Below are positions 998 through 20,867 of a stretch of 21,073 nucleotides of DNA, in pieces. This DNA is from a virus, in IMG/VR virus record IMGVR_UViG_3300046018_000152, positions 1 through 21,073 of that record; one strand, 5' to 3'. Position 1 is the first letter of the stretch, and every line of letters begins with the position of its first letter. The notes under the pieces were generated by a model. The model ran no database searches and was not told the DNA's origin. It saw nothing but the letters and a program-made list of their open reading frames with translations. Position numbers and translations under genes: made by a program.

Positions 998-3268
998 TCA
1001 GTACAGGGTCGTTGTGATCAGCCGCGCATCGGCGTCGAATACCCTGACTGCTGCATTCGTCGCTGTGGCATTGTGCGTCAGCACATAGTTTGGATAGGTT
1101 CCGGAAAGGATCGATGCCCCCGCAGGGATGCCGGTCCCCTGGATACGCTGCCCTGCCGCAAAGTCGTTGAAGCCTGTGACGGTGTGCGTCACTGTGATAT
1201 TCGGGCTTCCGCTTGTCGTTGCCGCTGTTGCTGCCACGTGCGCCGCTGGATACCACATGCATGTCAATGCGATGGCGCCGGATGGTGCATTCAGGCCGAT
1301 ACCTTCAAGTGTGATGGTCGACCCGACAATGGTTTTGATGATGCCGATGGGCCAGTTCAATGCGGTCAGCGTCGTGCCATCGATACGCTCGATTGAGCAC
1401 GTCGACACATAGATGGCATCTGACGCAGCCAGCACGAGTGGATCAGTCGCCGTAAATGTGGCATTGTAGTTGCTCAGCGATACCGTCGGCGAGCCCAGCG
1501 AGACAGACCCCATGCCAAGCTGTACGCGCAGAAGATTCCCGGTGGCCTTGTCATCAATAAACGAGCCGGGCCAAACCTGATAGTTGCCGCCGATGAAATC
1601 GTTTCCATCATCGGCCCGATAAACTTCATCAAATGAAGCCCGGAAACCCTGCGCCTTGTTTGTGGCGCTGCGGTGCGTGACACCACGCATCTTCACCCAT
1701 TTCAGTGCTTCTCGGTTGAACAGCACAGCCGGAGCGCATTGGAATGTGCACTGATCGAACAGTAGGGTATTTTTCTGCCCTCTGTCTGTAGAGTGGTAGA
1801 AGCGGATCGGGAAGCCATACGTTCTAGCGCCTACCGCATTCGGCGCGATGAAAGTGCAATCTCGGAAACTGACCGGGGCGAAGCTGGTCATCGACGCATC
1901 TTTGCCGGAAATCGTCTCACCAGACCGAAGCCAGAACGTGCAGTTTTGGAAGCTGAACGGTATCAGGTTGAAATTACCGCTATCGCCAATGAATCCAATC
2001 GACCAGATGTTTTCGGCATACACGCCGTAAAGTGATCCCTTTTGTGTGATGACACCAGCGCCCCCCGTCATACTAAGGGTCTTGACGAGGTGAGTACAGT
2101 TTGCAATGTCACCACCTACCCATGTAAACCCGCTACTACCCGTCTTCGTTGAATATGTGTAGTCATCAACGACAGTGTGAACGTTGCTGGCGTTTATGTT
2201 AGTTATGAGCCATCCCTTATGGTTCAACTGCCCAAATGAAATTGCCACCTTGACACTTGTGAAGCTGCAGTACTCGATAGCACCATCTTCATTGTTGTTG
2301 ATACTCCATCCGCCGGGGCTTGCGGAAATTCCAACAACTTGATTACGAAACCTACACCTACTGATGCGGACCTGCGACCCTGCCAACGAGGTAGTCGAGT
2401 TATAGAATGATGACAGGCCAGAATATCCGCCATCAGGCGGTAACCCTGTTGAAAATGGATCTATAGCAATAGCACACTGTGGGCTGTACTGCGTATCCCG
2501 GCACGACCCATTATTAAAATCAGACGCCAACAGGAAATTCGTAGTCGTGAAATTGTTTGGACCGATAAACTGCACGAATTCTATACTCACCGACCGGGCA
2601 CCCTGCACGATGATCGCCGGCCTGTCGGTGATGGCCGTATGGTCGAGAATCACGCCTTTGTCGGTGCGGGTCGTCACGCCTTCGCCACGGATATGCAGAT
2701 GAATGAACGTACCAGCGAGGTACACCATCAGCGGCGAGCTGATCTTGTAGATCCCGGACGGCCAGAACCCTCCGTGATTCCCGGCGACACAGGCATCAAG
2801 CCACGCCTGCAGGCCCGTGGTCGAATCCGCCACGCCTGTGGGGTCGACCCCCGGGAATGCCGTGGCGATCAGGCTGCGGCTCTTGAGGTATGCATCGACC
2901 GTCGTGCTTGATGCTGTGCTGGCCGGCTTGAATCCCACCAGCGCCGCTCCCTTGCCGCTTGCGGTGCTGGCAAGGTCTGCGCGCAGCCCGATGTCTGGTA
3001 CGGAAACACCATTGATTGACGCCCCGATCAATGCGCCGGCAACAGTCTTGAGTTGGAATGTGTACGGGCTATCACCCAGCCAAACCTGCGCCTCCCCACG
3101 AGAATCAAGCTGCACTGGGTTTGCATTCGGCGTGCCAAGCGTTGAATCAGTGAAAGTCGCAAGTGGCGTAGCCGTTCCGCTGGCGTAGGTGTAGAGTAAG
3201 GCCCCGACTGCCGGGCTGTTGTCGTCAAGAAAGCCCTTGAAGATCCCGCCTGTGTAGCTGTATGCCAT
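998..3268 (-). CDS. Tailspike / tail fibre with beta-helix (receptor-binding)
   Basis: A 756-residue protein at the P22 gene 9 position, after the ejection proteins. Residues 1-73 form the head-binding type N-terminus common to many podovirus and siphovirus fibres (GTATPLATFTDSTLGTPNAN, then PVQLDSRGEAQVWL). A linker (LRADLASTASGKGAALVGF) follows at about 95-113. From about residue 138 (FPGVDPTGVADST, later GGFWPSGIYKI) it resembles the start of pectate-lyase-like right-handed beta-helix domains. Repeated NCTFWL, DCTFIA and QCTFQC rungs at mid-protein support a parallel beta-helix. The last about 150 residues look like beta-sandwich modules (GSPNITVTH, GQRIQGTGIPAG). It should bind, and may cleave, a surface polysaccharide; no catalytic residues can be assigned by eye. 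The middle third is less GC-rich than the flanks (26 of 60 bases in 2161-2220), a sign of modular exchange. Confidence 0.9.
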   Translation of the reverse strand: MAYSYTGGIFKGFLDDNSPAVGALLYTYASGTATPLATFTDSTLGTPNANPVQLDSRGEAQVWLGDSPYTFQLKTVAGALIGASINGVSVPDIGLRADLASTASGKGAALVGFKPASTASSTTVDAYLKSRSLIATAFPGVDPTGVADSTTGLQAWLDACVAGNHGGFWPSGIYKISSPLMVYLAGTFIHLHIRGEGVTTRTDKGVILDHTAITDRPAIIVQGARSVSIEFVQFIGPNNFTTTNFLLASDFNNGSCRDTQYSPQCAIAIDPFSTGLPPDGGYSGLSSFYNSTTSLAGSQVRISRCRFRNQVVGISASPGGWSINNNEDGAIEYCSFTSVKVAISFGQLNHKGWLITNINASNVHTVVDDYTYSTKTGSSGFTWVGGDIANCTHLVKTLSMTGGAGVITQKGSLYGVYAENIWSIGFIGDSGNFNLIPFSFQNCTFWLRSGETISGKDASMTSFAPVSFRDCTFIAPNAVGARTYGFPIRFYHSTDRGQKNTLLFDQCTFQCAPAVLFNREALKWVKMRGVTHRSATNKAQGFRASFDEVYRADDGNDFIGGNYQVWPGSFIDDKATGNLLRVQLGMGSVSLGSPTVSLSNYNATFTATDPLVLAASDAIYVSTCSIERIDGTTLTALNWPIGIIKTIVGSTITLEGIGLNAPSGAIALTCMWYPAAHVAATAATTSGSPNITVTHTVTGFNDFAAGQRIQGTGIPAGASILSGTYPNYVLTHNATATNAAVRVFDADARLITTTLY

Positions 3269-8634: not shown

Positions 8635-8978
8635 TACGTCGTGCTCTGCAGCCGGCCGGTGGCCGCCGTGTTCGTGCCGGCCAGGGTGCTGATGGCAACC
8701 ACCGAACCACCGGCCAGCATCGTGTGACCGCGAACCCCTTGAGGGATCTTCGTTTCTCCAGGCAGCAGAGTCATCACTTCCATTTCCGTCGTGCTGCCGG
8801 CGCTTCCTCCGCTTGGCACCAGATACCACGTCACCGTCGCCGTCGTAGTTGTGCTGGTGTTGTGCGCCGTGATCCAGTCAAGAATCCACTTTGACCCAGC
8901 AGCCACCGTTGGTGAAAGCACGGTGTTAGTCAGGCCAATGGCAGTGGGCGGCCAGATAGTTTGTGTGCTGCTGCTCAT
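8634..8978 (-). CDS. Small Thr/Ser-rich beta protein, probable virion component
   Basis: A 114-residue protein from ATG 8978, overlapping the preceding stop by four bases (ATGA 8975-8978) and the next start by one. It is rich in Thr/Ser and alternating beta residues: LDWITAHNTSTTTTATVTWY, then MEVMTLLPGETKIPQGVRGH. The second motif, a leucine-proline-glycine-(D/E) turn, is common in small phage structural proteins that describe an interface or fibre-like beta-sandwich. No signal peptide or membrane helix. Located between the needle-slot gene and the ejection genes, it is probably a minor tail or head component, inferred from context only. Confidence 0.7.
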   Translation of the reverse strand: MSSSTQTIWPPTAIGLTNTVLSPTVAAGSKWILDWITAHNTSTTTTATVTWYLVPSGGSAGSTTEMEVMTLLPGETKIPQGVRGHTMLAGGSVVAISTLAGTNTAATGRLQSTT

Positions 8979-9370
8979 GTGTTCGGCCCTGTGGCAATGT
9001 CATTGATGGCCGACTCCAGCGCAACAACTCGCGCAGTGATATCGACCGGATCGGGTAGCGTGGCATATTCGAGGGCAGCAAGTCTCGCCATGATGTCAGC
9101 CAGTTCAGTCGGGGAATACTCGACAGGCGGCATGTAGACATAAGGCACTGATGCAGACTCACGGTCGATGCGAGACACTTCAAACCCGTACTGCTCTGCC
9201 GGCTGGTCTTCCGGCACTGCCGCTGCAATGTCGTCTGCGGATGTTCCGGCGGTGCCTCCAGTGCGGTTCCACAGGGTCTGCAGCAGCAGTAGCCACTCGC
9301 GCCGCCATTGACCTGTTTTCGGGTCGATAGGCGTGCTTGAGAGCTGCGGGAAGCCTGTCGTGACAGTCAT
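8975..9370 (-). CDS. Tail protein in the needle (gp26) slot, coiled-coil C-terminus
   Basis: A 131-residue protein from ATG 9370 (ATGA overlap with the gp10-like stop). Residues about 8-39 (FPQLSSTPIDPKTGQWRRE, then WLLLLQTLWNRTGG) match a N-terminal pattern I recognise from many phage structural proteins in which a 'conclude with W..FFQ.LW.RTGG' helix precedes a variable part. The middle is Pro-rich. The C-terminal region shows heptad-like spacing of Leu/Ile/Val (ELADIMARLAALEYATL and DITARVVALESAINDIA), consistent with a short trimeric coiled coil. P22 gp26, encoded at this place, is a trimeric coiled-coil needle of about 233 residues that plugs the portal. This could be a shorter plug or a fibre adaptor; similarity to gp26 is not visible by eye. 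Confidence 0.65.
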   Translation of the reverse strand: MTVTTGFPQLSSTPIDPKTGQWRREWLLLLQTLWNRTGGTAGTSADDIAAAVPEDQPAEQYGFEVSRIDRESASVPYVYMPPVEYSPTELADIMARLAALEYATLPDPVDITARVVALESAINDIATGPNT

Positions 9371-10851
9371 GAATCTGTGGCCTCACCGCGCAAGGTGGCG
9401 CCGACTACATCGCGGTTCACAGGGTCGGAAATGGTCACTTCGTACACCCGGTCTCGTGCGGCGCCTAGTCGGCGCTTGATGGCTCGCCGGCCTGTTTCGC
9501 CGAGCTTGCCAATGCCGAGCAAATGCGTGTTGCCCCACGTAAACCCGCCGTCGTTCGACCACCTGAGCATGATCTGCGGGTCCGAGCCCTGGCCTGTCAC
9601 TAGGCCAACCCCTGGCTTGAATTCTACCTGTAGCCGAGTCTGCACGACCCGATTGCGTTCGCCCTTGTCCCACACGTGGGGAGCGCGCCGAACAGCGACC
9701 AAAGGCCCAGGCCCATCCACATACGTGTGCCGAGACATCCGGTATATCTGCCCATCGTTGAAACCGCCCACAAGCCGCTGCCCAGCAAACGACAAGTAGC
9801 AGTTTGATCGGTGCCGTCCGAACAGCCCGGTACTGGTGTCGAACATCGCGCGCTGGTGCCACAGGGCTGTGGTCAGGTCATAGACCCACGTCACCCCGGC
9901 TGTCGGGAATGTCAGCACGTAGAACTCGTGCCCCTCCTCGGTGTACAGGTAGGCGATTGCATCATCAATCACTGAATACTGCGCGATGGCATAGGCAACT
10001 GCAGGCGTTGAAACCTGCGTGTGTTGATAATCTTGCGTCTGTATTACGAGGTTTTCCCCCCGCTCTGACCGGCCCAGCCACATCAGACCGGAGCCAGTGC
10101 GGCAGATGGTATGAGCGGCAGAGCAGCCGATTTGCATCGCAGCGCCTGCCAGACGTGCAAATGCAAACCCGACAGACCCAGATCCAACCCATACTTCAGA
10201 AGTCCTGGCCCCGATCAGCCACAATTCACGCTTGTTCTCTATCAGCATGATCAGGTTATCGCTTGAATTATCTTTTGAGGCAAATTGCGTCGCATCAATA
10301 GCGCTCGTGCCATTCCAGAATATCGGCAAGGTGTAGAACTGCTGTGTACCCGGCCTGTTTAGGATGAAAAACCCGTCAATGTAGGCAATCCTATCTGCCC
10401 CAAGAAACCCGGTATCCGTGATTTTCACCAGCGTGCCGGCCGCAATGTTGTAGACATACCCGTTCGGACCATCCACGATCAGGACAACCCCGCCAGCCCC
10501 GTTGTCCCGGATGCAGACCTGCCCAGATGACGTGTCGATAGTGCCGACCGTTGCCAGTGTGAACGTGGCCGCAGCCGTTGCCGTCGCGGCCGTTGCAATT
10601 GTCATCAGCACAACGGTGTTGCCGATTGCCCAAAGCGCCTTCGTATTGCCCGAAAAGGCCCATGCGCCGCGCACCTCTCCTGTATAGGCACTGGCCACAG
10701 CAGATGACAGCCCAGGTGTGCCAAGCAGCCCAATTGCAGCCTTCGCATCGGATGCCGGGTCGACCTCGACATACCAATTCACCAGCCGCTGCGCATCCTG
10801 CATCGGGTTGGCGGCCTCATAGGACGGGCCGACGAATGCAAAGGCCGGCAT
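9367..10851 (-). CDS. Packaged DNA stabilisation protein, P22 gp10-like
   Basis: A 494-residue protein; P22 gp10 is about 472. ATG 10851 is chosen over the longer frame because it overlaps the upstream stop as TGATG and has GGAGGA five bases before it (10857-10862). The N-terminus (FVGPSYEAANPMQDAQRLVN, then WYVEVDPAS) is characteristic of this family, as is the early LGTPGLS element. The rest is beta-propeller-like: repeated short strands with Gly/Asn turns, WAIGNTVVLM, REDN-type loops, IMLIENKRELWLIGARTSEV, and VTWVYDLTTALWHQR. In P22 six copies form the tail hub that closes the portal below gp4 and anchors the tailspikes and needle. It follows the gp4-like gene directly, as in P22. Confidence 0.9.
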   Translation of the reverse strand: MPAFAFVGPSYEAANPMQDAQRLVNWYVEVDPASDAKAAIGLLGTPGLSSAVASAYTGEVRGAWAFSGNTKALWAIGNTVVLMTIATAATATAAATFTLATVGTIDTSSGQVCIRDNGAGGVVLIVDGPNGYVYNIAAGTLVKITDTGFLGADRIAYIDGFFILNRPGTQQFYTLPIFWNGTSAIDATQFASKDNSSDNLIMLIENKRELWLIGARTSEVWVGSGSVGFAFARLAGAAMQIGCSAAHTICRTGSGLMWLGRSERGENLVIQTQDYQHTQVSTPAVAYAIAQYSVIDDAIAYLYTEEGHEFYVLTFPTAGVTWVYDLTTALWHQRAMFDTSTGLFGRHRSNCYLSFAGQRLVGGFNDGQIYRMSRHTYVDGPGPLVAVRRAPHVWDKGERNRVVQTRLQVEFKPGVGLVTGQGSDPQIMLRWSNDGGFTWGNTHLLGIGKLGETGRRAIKRRLGAARDRVYEVTISDPVNRDVVGATLRGEATDS

Positions 10852-11567
10852 CAGAATCCTCCGCTCAAGATCCACCCGGCGTCAGCATGGCCTGACCCGC
10901 ACACAGCCGGGTCAATGCTCATCGTGCTGCTTGGCGTGGCATTCAGCGACTTAATGATCTTGAGCGAGTCGCGTGCGGCTTTCTGAAGCTCAGGCGTCAC
11001 GCCGCCGTATTCCAAACCAAGCAGGCAAGCAAGGTTAGTTTCGATTGCAAGCTGATAACCCTGCGGCATCGATAGCGCAGTGGTCAAGCTCGCAAACTGG
11101 CTGATTAGCATGTCGTACCAAAGATGGAACTCATACCCAGCCTGTGGAACAGGCCAAAGCCTGATTTCCGCAAGAGGAAAGCCCGTATTGAAGTACATCA
11201 TTTTCGGCCACGGGCCGGGCTGATTCTTCAGGCCGATCTGCGAGTAACGGTCAAAACTTACCTCTTGGCAATCGAAGTCAACCGATGAGCTTGTGGTGAT
11301 TCGGGTGTATGCGCTGGAAAGGCGAAGCGGGCGCGCGATATTCCAATCGCCGCCAGTCCCTACGCTGTACGCCGACTTGCCGGGGACAAGCGCAAGCACT
11401 GCCTCGACGTTGTTGAACACGGCCAGGTGTTGAGCTGACCACTGATCCATCATGCCGTTGAGTTGCCCCAGGGCATCGGTGGCGTCGTCCGCATCCAAAG
11501 CCTCGCCCGGGGCATATTGCTTGATCTTGCGCAGGGCGCCTTTGATGAGGTCGAGTGCTGTTGTCAT
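10851..11567 (-). CDS. Tail accessory / head-closure factor, P22 gp4-like
   Basis: A 238-residue protein starting at ATG 11567 with AAGG about 7 bases upstream. The N-terminal helix pair (TTALDLIKGALRKIKQYAPG, later DALGQLNGMMDQWSAQ) is typical of the gp4 family of portal adaptors, where it lines the portal-binding ring. A beta-rich centre (GKSAYSVGTGGDW, GFPLAEIRLWPVP) and helical C-terminus follow. P22 gp4 is about 166 residues, so this is a longer version with an extended C-terminal part. Twelve copies bind the portal after packaging and create the platform for the gp10-like hub; P22 gp4 also has muramidase activity, for which I see no residues to judge. It overlaps the gp10-like gene by one base. 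Confidence 0.87.
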   Translation of the reverse strand: MTTALDLIKGALRKIKQYAPGEALDADDATDALGQLNGMMDQWSAQHLAVFNNVEAVLALVPGKSAYSVGTGGDWNIARPLRLSSAYTRITTSSSVDFDCQEVSFDRYSQIGLKNQPGPWPKMMYFNTGFPLAEIRLWPVPQAGYEFHLWYDMLISQFASLTTALSMPQGYQLAIETNLACLLGLEYGGVTPELQKAARDSLKIIKSLNATPSSTMSIDPAVCGSGHADAGWILSGGF

Positions 11568-11618
11568 TTTCTACCTTCGCAGGGCGTGCGGGCCGGCTGG
11601 GTGGTGGGTGGTCATGCG

Positions 11619-12956
11619 TTACAGCAGCGCAGGCAGGTCTGCAAGTTCGTAGTTGCGAATTTGCACATACCCCGCATCAGTCGGGTGGGTTCCGTCAGCC
11701 GTGGCAATGCCAGTCCACGCAGAAGTCGGCATCCACTTGACATTGGCATTTCCGATACTGGTAACCAGGGCAGAAATACCGTTGTTAACTGTTGGCCAGA
11801 TGTTTGCGCCTTCGGGTAGCACGCCACGGCAAATAATCGTTTTGTACTTCACCAGTAGTTGATTGATGATATCTGTGTAATTGGTGATGGCTGTCGCATC
11901 CCATAAAGTGTCGTTGCGGCCTATGGCGATGATGGCAACGTCCTTTGTATTATCGGTATCTTTTACCAGAAGCGCGGCCGACATGCGCGCCTGAAGAGTT
12001 GCAATTGTGTTCCCGTCAATACCATATGTAGACCCAACTCGACCGAGCATTGCGCCAACTTGCATCGTATCTACGTCGCCACTGCTCGTGGAGCCAGCGC
12101 CGCGCGTAATTGAATCGCCATATTGGTCAATGCGCCCGGCATTTGTTAGCGTCAGTAGCGCACTATCGGCATAAACGTAGAATACCCCAGCAGCACCATT
12201 AACATTTGCTGACCACACGTTATAAGTGTGTGTTGTCCCATCAAATGTGGCTGGCACATTAAACACGGCGGACGCCGTAGGTGATGCGCCCGTCGAATAC
12301 CGTGTCGGTGCAGCATTATCGACAGATACAAAAACAAATAACTGGTTTGTGTAGACCCATATTTGAGTCAGCGCCGACGAAAACCGCACGACAGGTATTG
12401 AACTGCCTGCCGTAGTATTAACGCCGAACATCGCAGCGCGCTTTGGCGGGTTATTGTATGTCGCGGCTGGTTGTGTAAATGCGCAGCTCCACGATGCATT
12501 GCCGGTGATGTCATAGGGCTGCGAAACGAACCTCTTGGTAATGCCGGCAGCCACGCCAGTACACGAGAAAACAGTACCAGTGGACAAGAAGAATGCATTA
12601 TTACCAAAAGCGCCACCAATCCTGATGATCACGACGTGATTGATGTCGGAAAGGCCCGTGAAAAGCGTGTAAGACCCTGAAACTTGATTTAGAGCCGTGA
12701 ATGCCCCGCCGTCGACGGATACTTCATACGCACCGTTTGGCGTACCTGTATGGCTGGCTGTGATTGTCGCGACAGTGCCTTTGATTAATCCATACCAGAA
12801 GGTATTGCCAGCGGCCCAAAATATGCGACCAGCCGTGCGGGTGGTATCTGTCGGGCCGGCTACCCCGCCTTGATCAAACTGAGCATAGGTCAAATTAACG
12901 GTGACTGGCGCACCCCCACCCATCGCCCGCAGCAGTTGATTGAAGCGCAGGCCCAT
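11619..12956 (-). CDS. Virion-module SGNH/GDSL-family esterase
   Basis: A 445-residue protein from ATG 12956, one base after the previous stop. Residues about 20-270 are beta-rich (LTYAQFD, GAYEVSVDGGAFTAL, FYVYADSALLTLTNAG) and could be one or two jelly-roll or Ig-like modules. Residues 275-445 carry the hydrolase signature: block I YGDSIT with the nucleophile Ser282, block III GRND with Asn348, and block V DGTHP with Asp421 and His424. Serine, Asp-x-x-His and Asn together indicate a complete SGNH site, so an active esterase or deacetylase is likely. The substrate is unknown; a surface O-acetylated glycan is the natural guess because the phage G7C tailspike gp63.1 is an O-antigen deacetylase. 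The gene has no P22 counterpart between genes 5 and 4 and is less GC-rich than its neighbours (23 of 60 bases in 11821-11880). Confidence 0.85.
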   Translation of the reverse strand: MGLRFNQLLRAMGGGAPVTVNLTYAQFDQGGVAGPTDTTRTAGRIFWAAGNTFWYGLIKGTVATITASHTGTPNGAYEVSVDGGAFTALNQVSGSYTLFTGLSDINHVVIIRIGGAFGNNAFFLSTGTVFSCTGVAAGITKRFVSQPYDITGNASWSCAFTQPAATYNNPPKRAAMFGVNTTAGSSIPVVRFSSALTQIWVYTNQLFVFVSVDNAAPTRYSTGASPTASAVFNVPATFDGTTHTYNVWSANVNGAAGVFYVYADSALLTLTNAGRIDQYGDSITRGAGSTSSGDVDTMQVGAMLGRVGSTYGIDGNTIATLQARMSAALLVKDTDNTKDVAIIAIGRNDTLWDATAITNYTDIINQLLVKYKTIICRGVLPEGANIWPTVNNGISALVTSIGNANVKWMPTSAWTGIATADGTHPTDAGYVQIRNYELADLPALL

Positions 12957-12957
12957 G

Positions 12958-13323
12958 TCAGGAACCCGTCACCACAAACACATTTGGCACGACATCCCCA
13001 GGGAATAGTGCGAACGATGCGTTAGCCGCCGCAGCCCTGGTGATAGTGGTAGACGCGCCATTCCCAGTCGCGCCCTGAAACGCAATCGAGGCATTCCCAG
13101 CCGCAGGGGGAACCCCGACGAACCCGAACCCATCCAGCCCCGCAGTGATGGTCATAACTGCAGCAGTCGACCATTTGACTGTCCAGCCGTCATACAGTGA
13201 CCGATTCGCCCCTGTCACCACCGTATCGCCCGTGATGAGAACCACCCCGAACGCATTCGGCGCGCTGGCAGGGATTACGTTTGGCGTGACCGTGACAGAT
13301 GGGCCAGCGTTTGCAAATGGCAT
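12958..13323 (-). CDS. Tag-sharing small head protein B (paralogue pair)
   Basis: A 121-residue protein from ATG 13323. Its first nine residues, MPFANAGPS, repeat those of the gene immediately upstream (MPFTNAGPS), while the rest differs. After the tag come beta-rich segments (GVVLITGDTVVTGANR, WTVKWSTAAVMTITAGLDGF, ASTTITRAAAANASFALFPG). No membrane helix, no cysteines. Because it lies between the coat gene and the esterase gene, it could be a capsid decoration or head fibre protein whose N-terminal tag docks on a shared site. It starts 25 bases after an intrinsic terminator, so it is probably expressed at a lower level than its paralogue. The function is inferred from position only. Confidence 0.72.
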   Translation of the reverse strand: MPFANAGPSVTVTPNVIPASAPNAFGVVLITGDTVVTGANRSLYDGWTVKWSTAAVMTITAGLDGFGFVGVPPAAGNASIAFQGATGNGASTTITRAAAANASFALFPGDVVPNVFVVTGS

Positions 13324-13368: not shown

Positions 13369-13752
13369 TCAGAAGCTGTTCATGTAGCCAGTTGGCGACA
13401 CTGACAGTGTTTGCGCACGGTTGACCTCGAACGTGTAGGTGCCAGCCGGAGGCGTGAGCGATCCTGCCGTCACATTGGCCCACACGATTTGAACTGTGTC
13501 GGTGGCCGTCACATTTGCGCCGATGGGGAACGTCCCAGCGGGGGTAATGGCCGGGACACCGGAAACTGCCACCTGATCGCCGACAACGACGCCAAGGCCG
13601 GTTAGCGTGAAAGATTGGCCAGCGGTAGTGGCAGCGGCAACTGCTGCAGGGGTGATGCTGGCCGTCAGGATGGCGGACTTCTGGATATTCCCGACACCGG
13701 CTTGCGGCTGCGGGTTGCTCGATGTGCTCGGGCCGGCATTCGTGAAAGGCAT
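13369..13752 (-). CDS. Tag-sharing small head protein A, probable decoration protein
   Basis: A 127-residue protein encoded 47 bases after the coat gene, starting at ATG 13752 with AGGAAA about 5 bases upstream. N-terminal tag MPFTNAGPS is followed by a low-complexity linker (TSSNPQPQAGVG) and a beta-rich domain (SFTLTGLGVVVGDQVAVSG, TDTVQIVWANVTAG, GTYTFEVNRAQTLSV). The (L)GV.VGD.VAVSGVPAI element is frequent in small phage head or tail beta-sandwich proteins. Location next to the coat gene and upstream of a terminator suggests high expression, as expected for a decoration or head fibre protein present in many copies. Not recognised as any named P22 protein. It shares the tag, but little else, with the next gene. 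Confidence 0.75.
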   Translation of the reverse strand: MPFTNAGPSTSSNPQPQAGVGNIQKSAILTASITPAAVAAATTAGQSFTLTGLGVVVGDQVAVSGVPAITPAGTFPIGANVTATDTVQIVWANVTAGSLTPPAGTYTFEVNRAQTLSVSPTGYMNSF

Positions 13753-13799: not shown

Positions 13800-15116
13800 T
13801 TAGCCGGCGACGCGCACAGCCATTTCGCGGTACAGCGGGGCCCAGCCGTACAGCACATCGATGCGGGTCGGCAGCGCGTCGTTGTTGATGGTGTACTGGC
13901 GCACCACCCGCAGCGACATGCCGATGTCCTTGTGCGATGCACGGGCCGCCATGTCCACACCTCCAGGCAACGGCAGGTCAGCCGACACCAGGGTGAATGC
14001 ATCGCGGTGGAAGGCCAGATTCTGCGGCGATACGGCAGCGGAGCCAGCGAAGAAGGTTAGGTTCGCAGAGTTCGCAGGCGCGGCGGTCACGTTCTGGAAC
14101 TGGCCGGCGCTGATGACAGCGGAAGAGACCTGCAGTTGCAGCAGGCCGCCCGCATCCGACGTGTAGGTGCCGCCGATGACCACGCCGGCAGAGTCGGTGA
14201 CAGGGACAAACGCGCCATTGCTGGGCGTACCGACGAACGGGCGCACGACGAAGAAGCGGGCTTTTCCGTTGCCGACAGCCGAACGGTTCTGCGGGTTCAC
14301 CGCATTGACGTTGGCCGCGCTGAACACGTCACCGACCTTGACCACAGCAGTGGATGCCGTCCAGCCCTTGGTCTGGAAGGTGCCGCCATCAGCCCAGCCC
14401 GAGGTCAGCAGCGCAGAGCTGGTGCCGGTCGTGCTGAACTGCGGGGTGCCGCCCAGGGCGCCGAACGTCTGCGTGATGATGTTCTGGTCTTGATACCAGT
14501 CGAAGCCCAGCGTGGCCTTGCCGAGCATGCCCTTCTCGTACTGCTGGCTGATCTTCACCTGCGGGTTGAACAGGCCGGTGAGTGCGCCAGCCATCGACGC
14601 CATGCTCCACTGATCCATGACGATGCAGCGATTGCCATCGCGCGGGACGCCTTCTGAGTCCAGCCAGGCGCCGGCTTGCAAGAACGGGGCGACGGTGGTC
14701 GGGGAGGTGCCGGCAGTGCCGGTGATGTTGGCAACGTTGGTCGCCATCATCGTGGCGCCGTCGAAGTCCACCCGGTTGGCAATGGTGGCGATCTTGGGCT
14801 TCAGCACGCGGTCACTGAACATGTCCATGCTCAGCAGCAGATCCGACGTGATGAACTGCGTGTCGACGTGGAACTGCGTGGTCAGCGTGACTGGCACGCT
14901 GGTCTCCACGAAGTCCTCGACGTTCAGGGCTGGCCCAGTGGTGCCCTTGAATCGGCCGGGCCGGCGAGCGTTGACGGTGTAGCCGATCTTCGCGCCGTCG
15001 ATACCGAATTTGTCGTCATACTGACGGTTGACCTTCGCGGTCAGCATCAGTTCGTTTTCCAACACCATCAACGCTTCGTTGGTGATGTCGCTGATATTCA
15101 GCAAATTGTTGCTCAT
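13800..15116 (-). CDS. Major capsid (coat) protein, P22 gp5-like
   Basis: A 438-residue protein, close to the about 430 residues of P22 coat protein, directly after the scaffold gene. An HK97-type fold with a P22-like layout is suggested: N-terminal helix (ITNEALMVLENELMLTAKV), a GxxxGYTV strand (GAKIGYTVNARRPGRFKG), a spine-type region (RVLKPKIATIANRVDFDGAT), an inserted beta-rich stretch around 240-340 (VGDVFSAANVNAVNPQNRS, ARFFVVRPFVG) resembling the P22 I-domain, and a C-terminal strand (TRIDVLYGWAPLYREMAVRV). The start is ATG 15116, not the in-frame ATG 15125: the ribosome binding site AGAAGGA ends directly against 15125 but sits 9 bases from 15116. Expected to be the most expressed gene here. 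Confidence 0.92.
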   Translation of the reverse strand: MSNNLLNISDITNEALMVLENELMLTAKVNRQYDDKFGIDGAKIGYTVNARRPGRFKGTTGPALNVEDFVETSVPVTLTTQFHVDTQFITSDLLLSMDMFSDRVLKPKIATIANRVDFDGATMMATNVANITGTAGTSPTTVAPFLQAGAWLDSEGVPRDGNRCIVMDQWSMASMAGALTGLFNPQVKISQQYEKGMLGKATLGFDWYQDQNIITQTFGALGGTPQFSTTGTSSALLTSGWADGGTFQTKGWTASTAVVKVGDVFSAANVNAVNPQNRSAVGNGKARFFVVRPFVGTPSNGAFVPVTDSAGVVIGGTYTSDAGGLLQLQVSSAVISAGQFQNVTAAPANSANLTFFAGSAAVSPQNLAFHRDAFTLVSADLPLPGGVDMAARASHKDIGMSLRVVRQYTINNDALPTRIDVLYGWAPLYREMAVRVAG

Positions 15117-15125
15117 GACTGCCAT

Positions 15126-20335: not shown

Positions 20336-20565
20336 GCTGGCCCCATGTCGAGTAGGTAGTTTCCTCCGCCGGCCGACCGCTCAAAGATGACGCGGCGAAC
20401 CTTTCCCTCTGCGCGGATTAGAGCCTCATCGCCTATGCGCCTTGGCTTTTCCGTCAGGAACTCGGGCGCGTCGTCGCCGGCTTGCGCAACAGGGACAGGG
20501 CCGAATCCATTGAACCATGCGCACAGCCTGTTGGCGGGCCGCTTGAAGAATCGTTTGTTTGTCAT
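20332..20565 (-). CDS. Small basic hypothetical protein
   Basis: A 77-residue protein from ATG 20565, fixed by an ATGA overlap (20562-20565) with the GroES-like stop; the longer frame upstream lies inside that gene. The first half is basic and aromatic (NKRFFKRPANRLCAWFNGFG), the second half reads like a small beta-barrel (GDEALIRAEGKVRRVIFERS, then GGGNYLLDMG), suggestive of an SH3-like or nucleic-acid-binding fold. No family identified. Confidence 0.65.
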   Translation of the reverse strand: MTNKRFFKRPANRLCAWFNGFGPVPVAQAGDDAPEFLTEKPRRIGDEALIRAEGKVRRVIFERSAGGGNYLLDMGPA

Positions 20566-20867
20566 GCGGGCTCCTCGACTGTGGTGATGTCCATCTCGCT
20601 GATGAGCGCGAGCTGCTTGTCCACAGGGTCCCGCGGGTATTCCAACTCGCTGAACCGGACGACATCGCCGACTCGCACTGACATCGGCAAGACTTGGCCC
20701 TGCGAGTTGCGCCGGCCCGGGCCGACAGCCACCACGGTGCCACGGTTGCCGATCTGGTCGGTAGCTTCTCTCCACTTGCTCACATCAGTGGCAAGGTAGA
20801 TCCCCGCAGCGCTCGGAAGGCTCTCATCAAGCCTGACAAGGACTCGGTCACCTAGTGGTTTCAGCAT
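20562..20867 (-). CDS. Phage-encoded GroES-like co-chaperonin (Cpn10 family)
   Basis: A 101-residue protein that aligns end to end with GroES (97 residues in E. coli). Shared elements: KPLGDRVLVR at the start (GroES RPLHDRVIVK), a mobile loop with AGIYL at 21-25 (GroES GGIVL, the tripeptide that binds GroEL), RGTVVAVGPGR (GroES RGEVLAVGNGR), VRVGDVVRF (VKVGDIVIF) and LISEMDI (IMSESDI). The mobile loop to strand connection is about 7 residues longer and the region after the GDVV strand about 3 shorter. It has a good ribosome site (AAGGAG inside the previous stop). GroEL is not in the window, so it should work with the host chaperonin, as phage T4 gp31 does for capsid protein folding. Confidence 0.9.
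   Translation of the reverse strand: MLKPLGDRVLVRLDESLPSAAGIYLATDVSKWREATDQIGNRGTVVAVGPGRRNSQGQVLPMSVRVGDVVRFSELEYPRDPVDKQLALISEMDITTVEEPA

Follow-up and report, generated by a model that had tools for sequence, protein, structure and literature searches.

Searches for the sugar-modifying enzymes of phages usually turn to tailspikes and tail fibres, and the tailspike gp63.1 of phage G7C is reportedly a deacetylase. The CE2 esterases, such as those of Cellvibrio japonicus (2waa), Butyrivibrio (Est2A, 3u37/4dev) and Clostridium (CtCE2, 2wab), have a common architecture in which a jelly roll is joined to an SGNH part. In lactococcal 936 phages, the C-terminal module of the neck-passage proteins of groups F and G was matched to 2waa by HHpred (PMC6669499). 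These virion proteins are 500-900 aa long and have a conserved N-terminus of ~180 residues. Known decoration proteins dock through N-terminal arms (PMC7602432), and gp87 of P74-26 and Dec of the P22-like phage L are small beta proteins of this kind, encoded next to the coat gene.

The window analyzed here (the whole stretch of 21,073 nucleotides, positions 1 to 21,073 of IMG/VR record IMGVR_UViG_3300046018_000152) codes for a CE2-like SGNH esterase. The CE2-like neck-passage proteins of 936 phages (e.g., that of ASCC191) appear to be its closest precedent, both being head-tail-region proteins with a CE2-like module. However, the esterase belongs to a P22-type phage, follows the coat gene, and has only ~16 leader residues; the ~180-residue N-terminal domain is absent from it, and no PHROG of the neck-passage type was matched. 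What is new with respect to the 936 proteins is the P22-type setting, the recurrence in unrelated phages as a neighbor of the coat gene, and the variable slot marked by an N-terminal tag.

The esterase gene and its surroundings

The genes of the window are transcribed in the order terminase, portal, scaffold, P22-type coat, 127-aa protein, 121-aa protein, and esterase, and then gp4/Ad3-like adaptor, gp10/Hc3-like protein, ejection-type proteins, and P22-type tailspike. The coat and tail-adaptor neighbors named in the earlier note were therefore recovered, as were its two head proteins with a common tag. The main features are these:

13800..15125, minus: P22-type major coat protein (Pfam 3.5e-39; PHROG major head protein)
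13369..13752, minus: 'deco1', tagged 127-aa post-coat protein, MPFTNAGPS... (family, alignment, model)
12958..13323, minus: 'deco2', tagged 121-aa head-region protein, MPFANAGPS... (ORF list, tag)
11619..12956, minus: CE2-like SGNH esterase gene, 445 aa, stop included (ORF list, Pfam, alignment, model, Foldseek)
12909..12956, minus: esterase N-terminal leader, residues 1-16 (model and alignment)
12135..12908, minus: esterase beta-rich N-terminal region, residues 17-274 (AF2 model, Foldseek)
11622..12134, minus: SGNH hydrolase domain, residues 275-445 (Pfam, model, Foldseek, alignment)
12113..12111, minus: codon of S282
11915..11913, minus: codon of N348
11696..11694, minus: codon of D421
11687..11685, minus: codon of H424
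11578..11704, minus: 127 nt also present, without mismatch, at the end of a contig from another podophage (L112/L129)
10851..11567, minus: gp4/Ad3-like head-tail adaptor, which closes the slot on its far side (PHROG 637)
998-3268, minus: P22-type tailspike

The earlier note named no strand; the plus strand has stops throughout 11619-12956. The stop of the 121-aa protein sits 1 nt before the esterase start codon. A frameshift fusion of the two found no support, since their reading frames are one base apart, with a separate start or stop for each. Translational coupling argued from a missing Shine-Dalgarno site was likewise discarded, as this site is no more than moderately weak, and equally weak ones precede other genes.

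The window had no close relative at the DNA level among deposited phages, and a single-sequence scan with gp4 gave no matches. The nearest coats in bacterial genomes are from Paraburkholderia and Burkholderia, so a host within the Burkholderiales is likely. Elsewhere in the window, an ORF upstream of the terminase genes (20562-20867, minus) codes for a GroES-like co-chaperonin, found in the same region in PBR31 and ctn9Y15. The ORF at 8975-9370 (minus) has 40-80 N-terminal residues conserved in 16 relatives, while the rest of the protein and its length (140-500 aa) vary; this N-terminus is possibly a second modular anchor.

Fold and catalytic residues

A full catalytic set preceded by about 270 residues of beta-rich sequence had been read from the letters alone in the earlier note, and later evidence agrees on each element. 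Residues 279-430 match Pfam Lipase_GDSL_2 with 45.2 bits, well placed above the cut-off of 32.9 (E=1.9e-11). The block I serine (GDS) is S282 in YGDSIT, the block II glycine is G315, the block III asparagine is N348 in GRND, and the DxxH of block V is D421/H424 in DGTHP. The alignment of 21 phage homologues has no variation at G280, D281, S282, G315, G346, N348, or H424, and 20 of them keep D421, a conservation far beyond chance. Given that S282, N348, and H424 never vary and D421 does so only once, the esterase looks active, and we consider enzyme activity likely. Decoration and neck proteins often bind glycans (PMC7602432, PMC6669499), and the protein could accordingly be a catalytically silent carbohydrate-binding module devoted to adhesion only. 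However, nearly all of the 21 homologues retain active-site blocks I, III, and V, which would be unexpected for a pure binder, and this explanation is very improbable.

The AF2 model (pLDDT 80 overall, ~90 over the SGNH domain) is beta-rich ahead of the domain, and the domain itself has an SGNH fold, with many SGNH matches in the PDB by Foldseek (TM to target up to 0.74). The best of them are the CE2 esterases 2waa, 3u37/4dev, 4xvh, and 2wab/2wao, with E values of 5e-11 to 8e-9 across ~330-390 columns; the nine top matches are all CE2 or Est2A, and the alignments take in the jelly roll as well as the SGNH part. The beta-rich region is jelly-roll/CE2_N-like at residues 34-111, where Pfam CE2_N scores 16.8 bits, below its cut-off of 27.9, which is why we call the enzyme CE2-like and not CE2. 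Identity to the CE2 esterases is 12-16%, and the phage protein is about 70-110 residues longer. A jacalin likeness of the beta region (sequence similarity with E about 0.2) was judged to be chance. In the leader, the model places a short helix (residues 4-12, low confidence) followed by a Gly-rich linker, a possible docking segment.

Of the enzyme reading in the earlier note, the complete SGNH esterase in the head block stands, with a CE2-type architecture consistent with O-acetyl removal from surface glycans, while the G7C tailspike is not the better parallel. gp63.1 and the window protein would have in common a phage-borne O-acetyl removal of SGNH type, but the G7C enzyme is a tailspike, whereas in the window a P22-type gene of its own codes for the tailspike and the esterase lies in the head block. 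The 936 neck-passage protein fits better: 2waa, its HHpred match in PMC6669499, is also the top PDB match of the window protein by Foldseek, and the neck-passage protein of Lactococcus phage ASCC191 ranks second for the esterase model in the BFVD viral fold search.

Homologues and signs of mobility

Full-length homologues with 30-39% identity are present in four deposited phages (five records), namely, Nitrincola phage 1M3-16 (orf106), Pseudomonas phage phiK7A1 (gp64), Pseudomonas phage Lebethron (gp59), and ctUhy936 (a GDSL protein), and no published function was found for any of the four, nor virion proteomics for any homologue. They differ from the window protein in N-terminal additions (FN3-like repeats, leaders) or, in ctUhy936, in a second C-terminal SGNH-like part. 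Scanning viral contigs with the esterase sequence by itself gave no matches, but a profile built from the family alignment found about 25 further loci in IMG/VR. Unlike the CE2 esterases, the window enzyme is phage-encoded, and no cellular relative appeared in 399 genomes of one bacterial order (that of a Paraburkholderia prophage host), a small sample in which the search was backed by positive controls that worked on virus records.

The esterase gene lies next to the major capsid gene in the window and in at least five other settings. The same protein, at 450-470 aa, turns up in unrelated phages in at least six genomic contexts, with the major capsid gene on one side and the connector or portal gene on the other:

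L091: major head protein, two ORFs, esterase, head-tail adaptor Ad1
L092/L093: major head protein, two small ORFs, esterase, Ad1
L097: head protein (P22-coat PHROG), esterase, Ad1
L099, L105: head protein, esterase, small ORF, portal (head-protein and portal PHROG matches in L099)
ctUhy936: major capsid protein, small ORFs, esterase with the second SGNH-like part, head-tail connector

Other homologues are found ahead of the terminase (phiK7A1, L090, L094, L098, L102-L104) or close to tail genes (L095, L110). Throughout the family the bodies are conserved and the first 10-35 residues are variable, alike within a phage type and unlike between types, as expected of lineage-specific docking segments, although relaxed drift would look similar.

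These settings bear on whether the protein belongs to the virion at all. It might instead be a non-virion late enzyme that de-acetylates peptidoglycan or surface glycans in lysis or to block re-adsorption, as would suit its late gene position, the several homologues outside the head block, and the presence of the peptidoglycan O-acetylesterase Ape1 among the fold matches. Yet the CE2 matches are stronger and longer than that to Ape1, the N-terminus has no obvious export signal on reading the sequence, and the placement between major capsid protein and connector is repeated in unrelated phages, all of which make a non-virion enzyme improbable.

With a GC content of 0.523 and a GC3 of 0.529, the esterase gene is the lowest among the late genes examined, the others ranging from 0.55 to 0.64 and from 0.62 to 0.84, respectively. 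The 127 nt identical to the other podophage contig comprise the last 86 nt of the esterase gene and 41 nt of intergenic DNA; on that contig a portal gene follows, and its portal and head-protein families differ from those of the window. The shared stretch appears to mark a cassette border, although the L112 identity covers the 127-mer alone, not the whole gene, and misassembly is possible. As 127 is a common assembler k-mer length, a graph segment common to both probably forms the end of the L112/L129 contig; the presence of the 127-mer in both genomes would then imply that they exchanged DNA recently, barring a join created by the assembly. Given the lowest GC content and a 3' end in common with an unrelated podophage, the gene seems to behave as a horizontally mobile cassette in the slot between the coat and gp4 genes. 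L129 also has unassigned ORFs of 487 and 251 aa between portal and scaffold, possibly further accessories.

The coat-gp4 slot and the location of the esterase

We surveyed the slot in 80 coat relatives from IMG/VR and, in addition, in genome and phage records, counting ORFs of 40 aa or more and taking as post-coat ORFs those that start within 400 nt of the coat stop. The slot is hypervariable: its length from coat to gp4 varies between about 0.2 and 9 kb, and its contents differ greatly. At the N-terminus of the post-coat ORF, the motif N-[PAGF]-G-P-[ASTV] was found in 77 of 90 loci. In all, 93 of 5469 ORFs carry the tag, all but three of them in the slot; these three are copies of one and the same unrelated protein. 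The slot nearly always holds at least a small tagged protein, so that the esterase is inserted, as the earlier note put it, when compared with P22 itself but not when compared with these relatives. The exact esterase family of the window was found in the slot of none of the 80 loci. Other passengers include the following:

L015: tagged 440-aa SGNH esterase of another type (Pfam 3.3e-12)
L019: tagged 467-aa deacetylase-like protein (E 0.042, label tentative)
L021, L025, L026: tagged fibre-like proteins
L052: tagged protein related to the 121-aa one, followed by an untagged glycosidase-like ORF (GH10-like label tentative, E 1.9e-4, just under cut-off)

The N-x-G-P-[AS] tag is thus common to non-homologous bodies (SGNH esterase, deacetylase-like protein, fibres), and the pattern, as judged from sequence, is that of a modular docking peptide. 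The deacetylase-like body of L019 recurs with 81% identity and a different N-terminus in another phage (L128:4444-5973), where it is flanked by portal and scaffold-like genes. The 628-aa slot protein of L020 and the slot proteins of L036 had no informative Pfam match. Among more distant coat relatives, we also observed fibre-like slot proteins of 700-925 aa with a common N-terminus, ...TTNIVPVQG (L064, L065, L070, L073, L080, L086, L088, MW202674, MW202520). At another locus, an HNH-endonuclease-like ORF (L046:9076-9702) separates the coat gene from the tagged protein.

In the family of the 127-aa protein (42 members), N5, G7, and P8 of the tag are among six invariant columns, and the model has an extended N-terminal arm followed by a beta fold, much as in gp87 and Dec. 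Unlike these, its tag is common to unrelated passenger bodies and its fold search gave no significant PDB match, so a decoration role rests on position and tag, and a lambda-gpD-like or Dec-like fold is not claimed. The 121-aa protein is similar to the N-terminal part of L052:10808-11632. Both proteins upstream of the esterase carry the tag, which is absent from the esterase itself, making the 121-aa protein a candidate that may anchor it. L052 repeats this layout, with a tagged relative of the 121-aa protein before an untagged enzyme-like ORF, and a tagged adaptor and enzyme pair is therefore plausible in the window.

The recurrence of the same protein near capsid genes in unrelated phages and the tag-fused esterase of L015 favor virion display, and association of the window esterase with the virion is likely. 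A site at the neck or tail, as a collar or adaptor whisker like the lactococcal neck-passage structure, would agree with the gene lying directly before the gp4-like adaptor, with the ASCC191 and 2waa matches described above, and with the homologues near baseplate or tail genes. However, the esterase has no separate neck-binding domain, its beta module beginning at about residue 17, and the tagged proteins of the slot track the coat gene in the lineage of the coat relatives. We consider the neck or tail, rather than the capsid shell, somewhat unlikely as its site, and the capsid is only slightly favored over the neck.

Taken as a whole, we find it reasonably probable that this is a mobile, virion-borne (head or neck) CE2-like esterase that de-O-acetylates a host surface polysaccharide. 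An SGNH-fold serine hydrolase with a CE2-like jelly-roll module would remove O-acetyl groups from the O-antigen, capsule, or exopolysaccharide of the host, carried at the neck or on the surface of the head, as an auxiliary of the separate P22-type tailspike. The lineage would use the coat-gp4 slot for virion accessories, many of them probably docking by the N-x-G-P-[AS] tag; the 121-aa protein, which bears this tag and whose gene ends 1 nt upstream, might anchor the esterase, or the short N-terminal helix of the enzyme could serve instead.

Since sugar-acting enzymes and fibres of related phages occupy this slot, several of them with the tag, the head or neck may be a swappable enzyme platform. 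More tentatively, this P22-type lineage might possess a capsid-display system in which the peptide docks interchangeable bodies on the head (small decoration proteins, SGNH esterases, deacetylase- or glycosidase-like enzymes, and fibres) as a swappable enzymatic surface. Our literature search, of incomplete coverage, found neither the tag nor a capsid-borne esterase described. If the display reading is true, such a surface would help the phage through host polysaccharide, and the tag would offer a route to predict virion-borne enzymes as well as a natural capsid-display tag. A conserved and mobile CE2-like esterase by the capsid genes of unrelated phages, together with a tag common to enzyme passengers and the post-coat protein, suggests that phages carry enzymes on heads or necks too.
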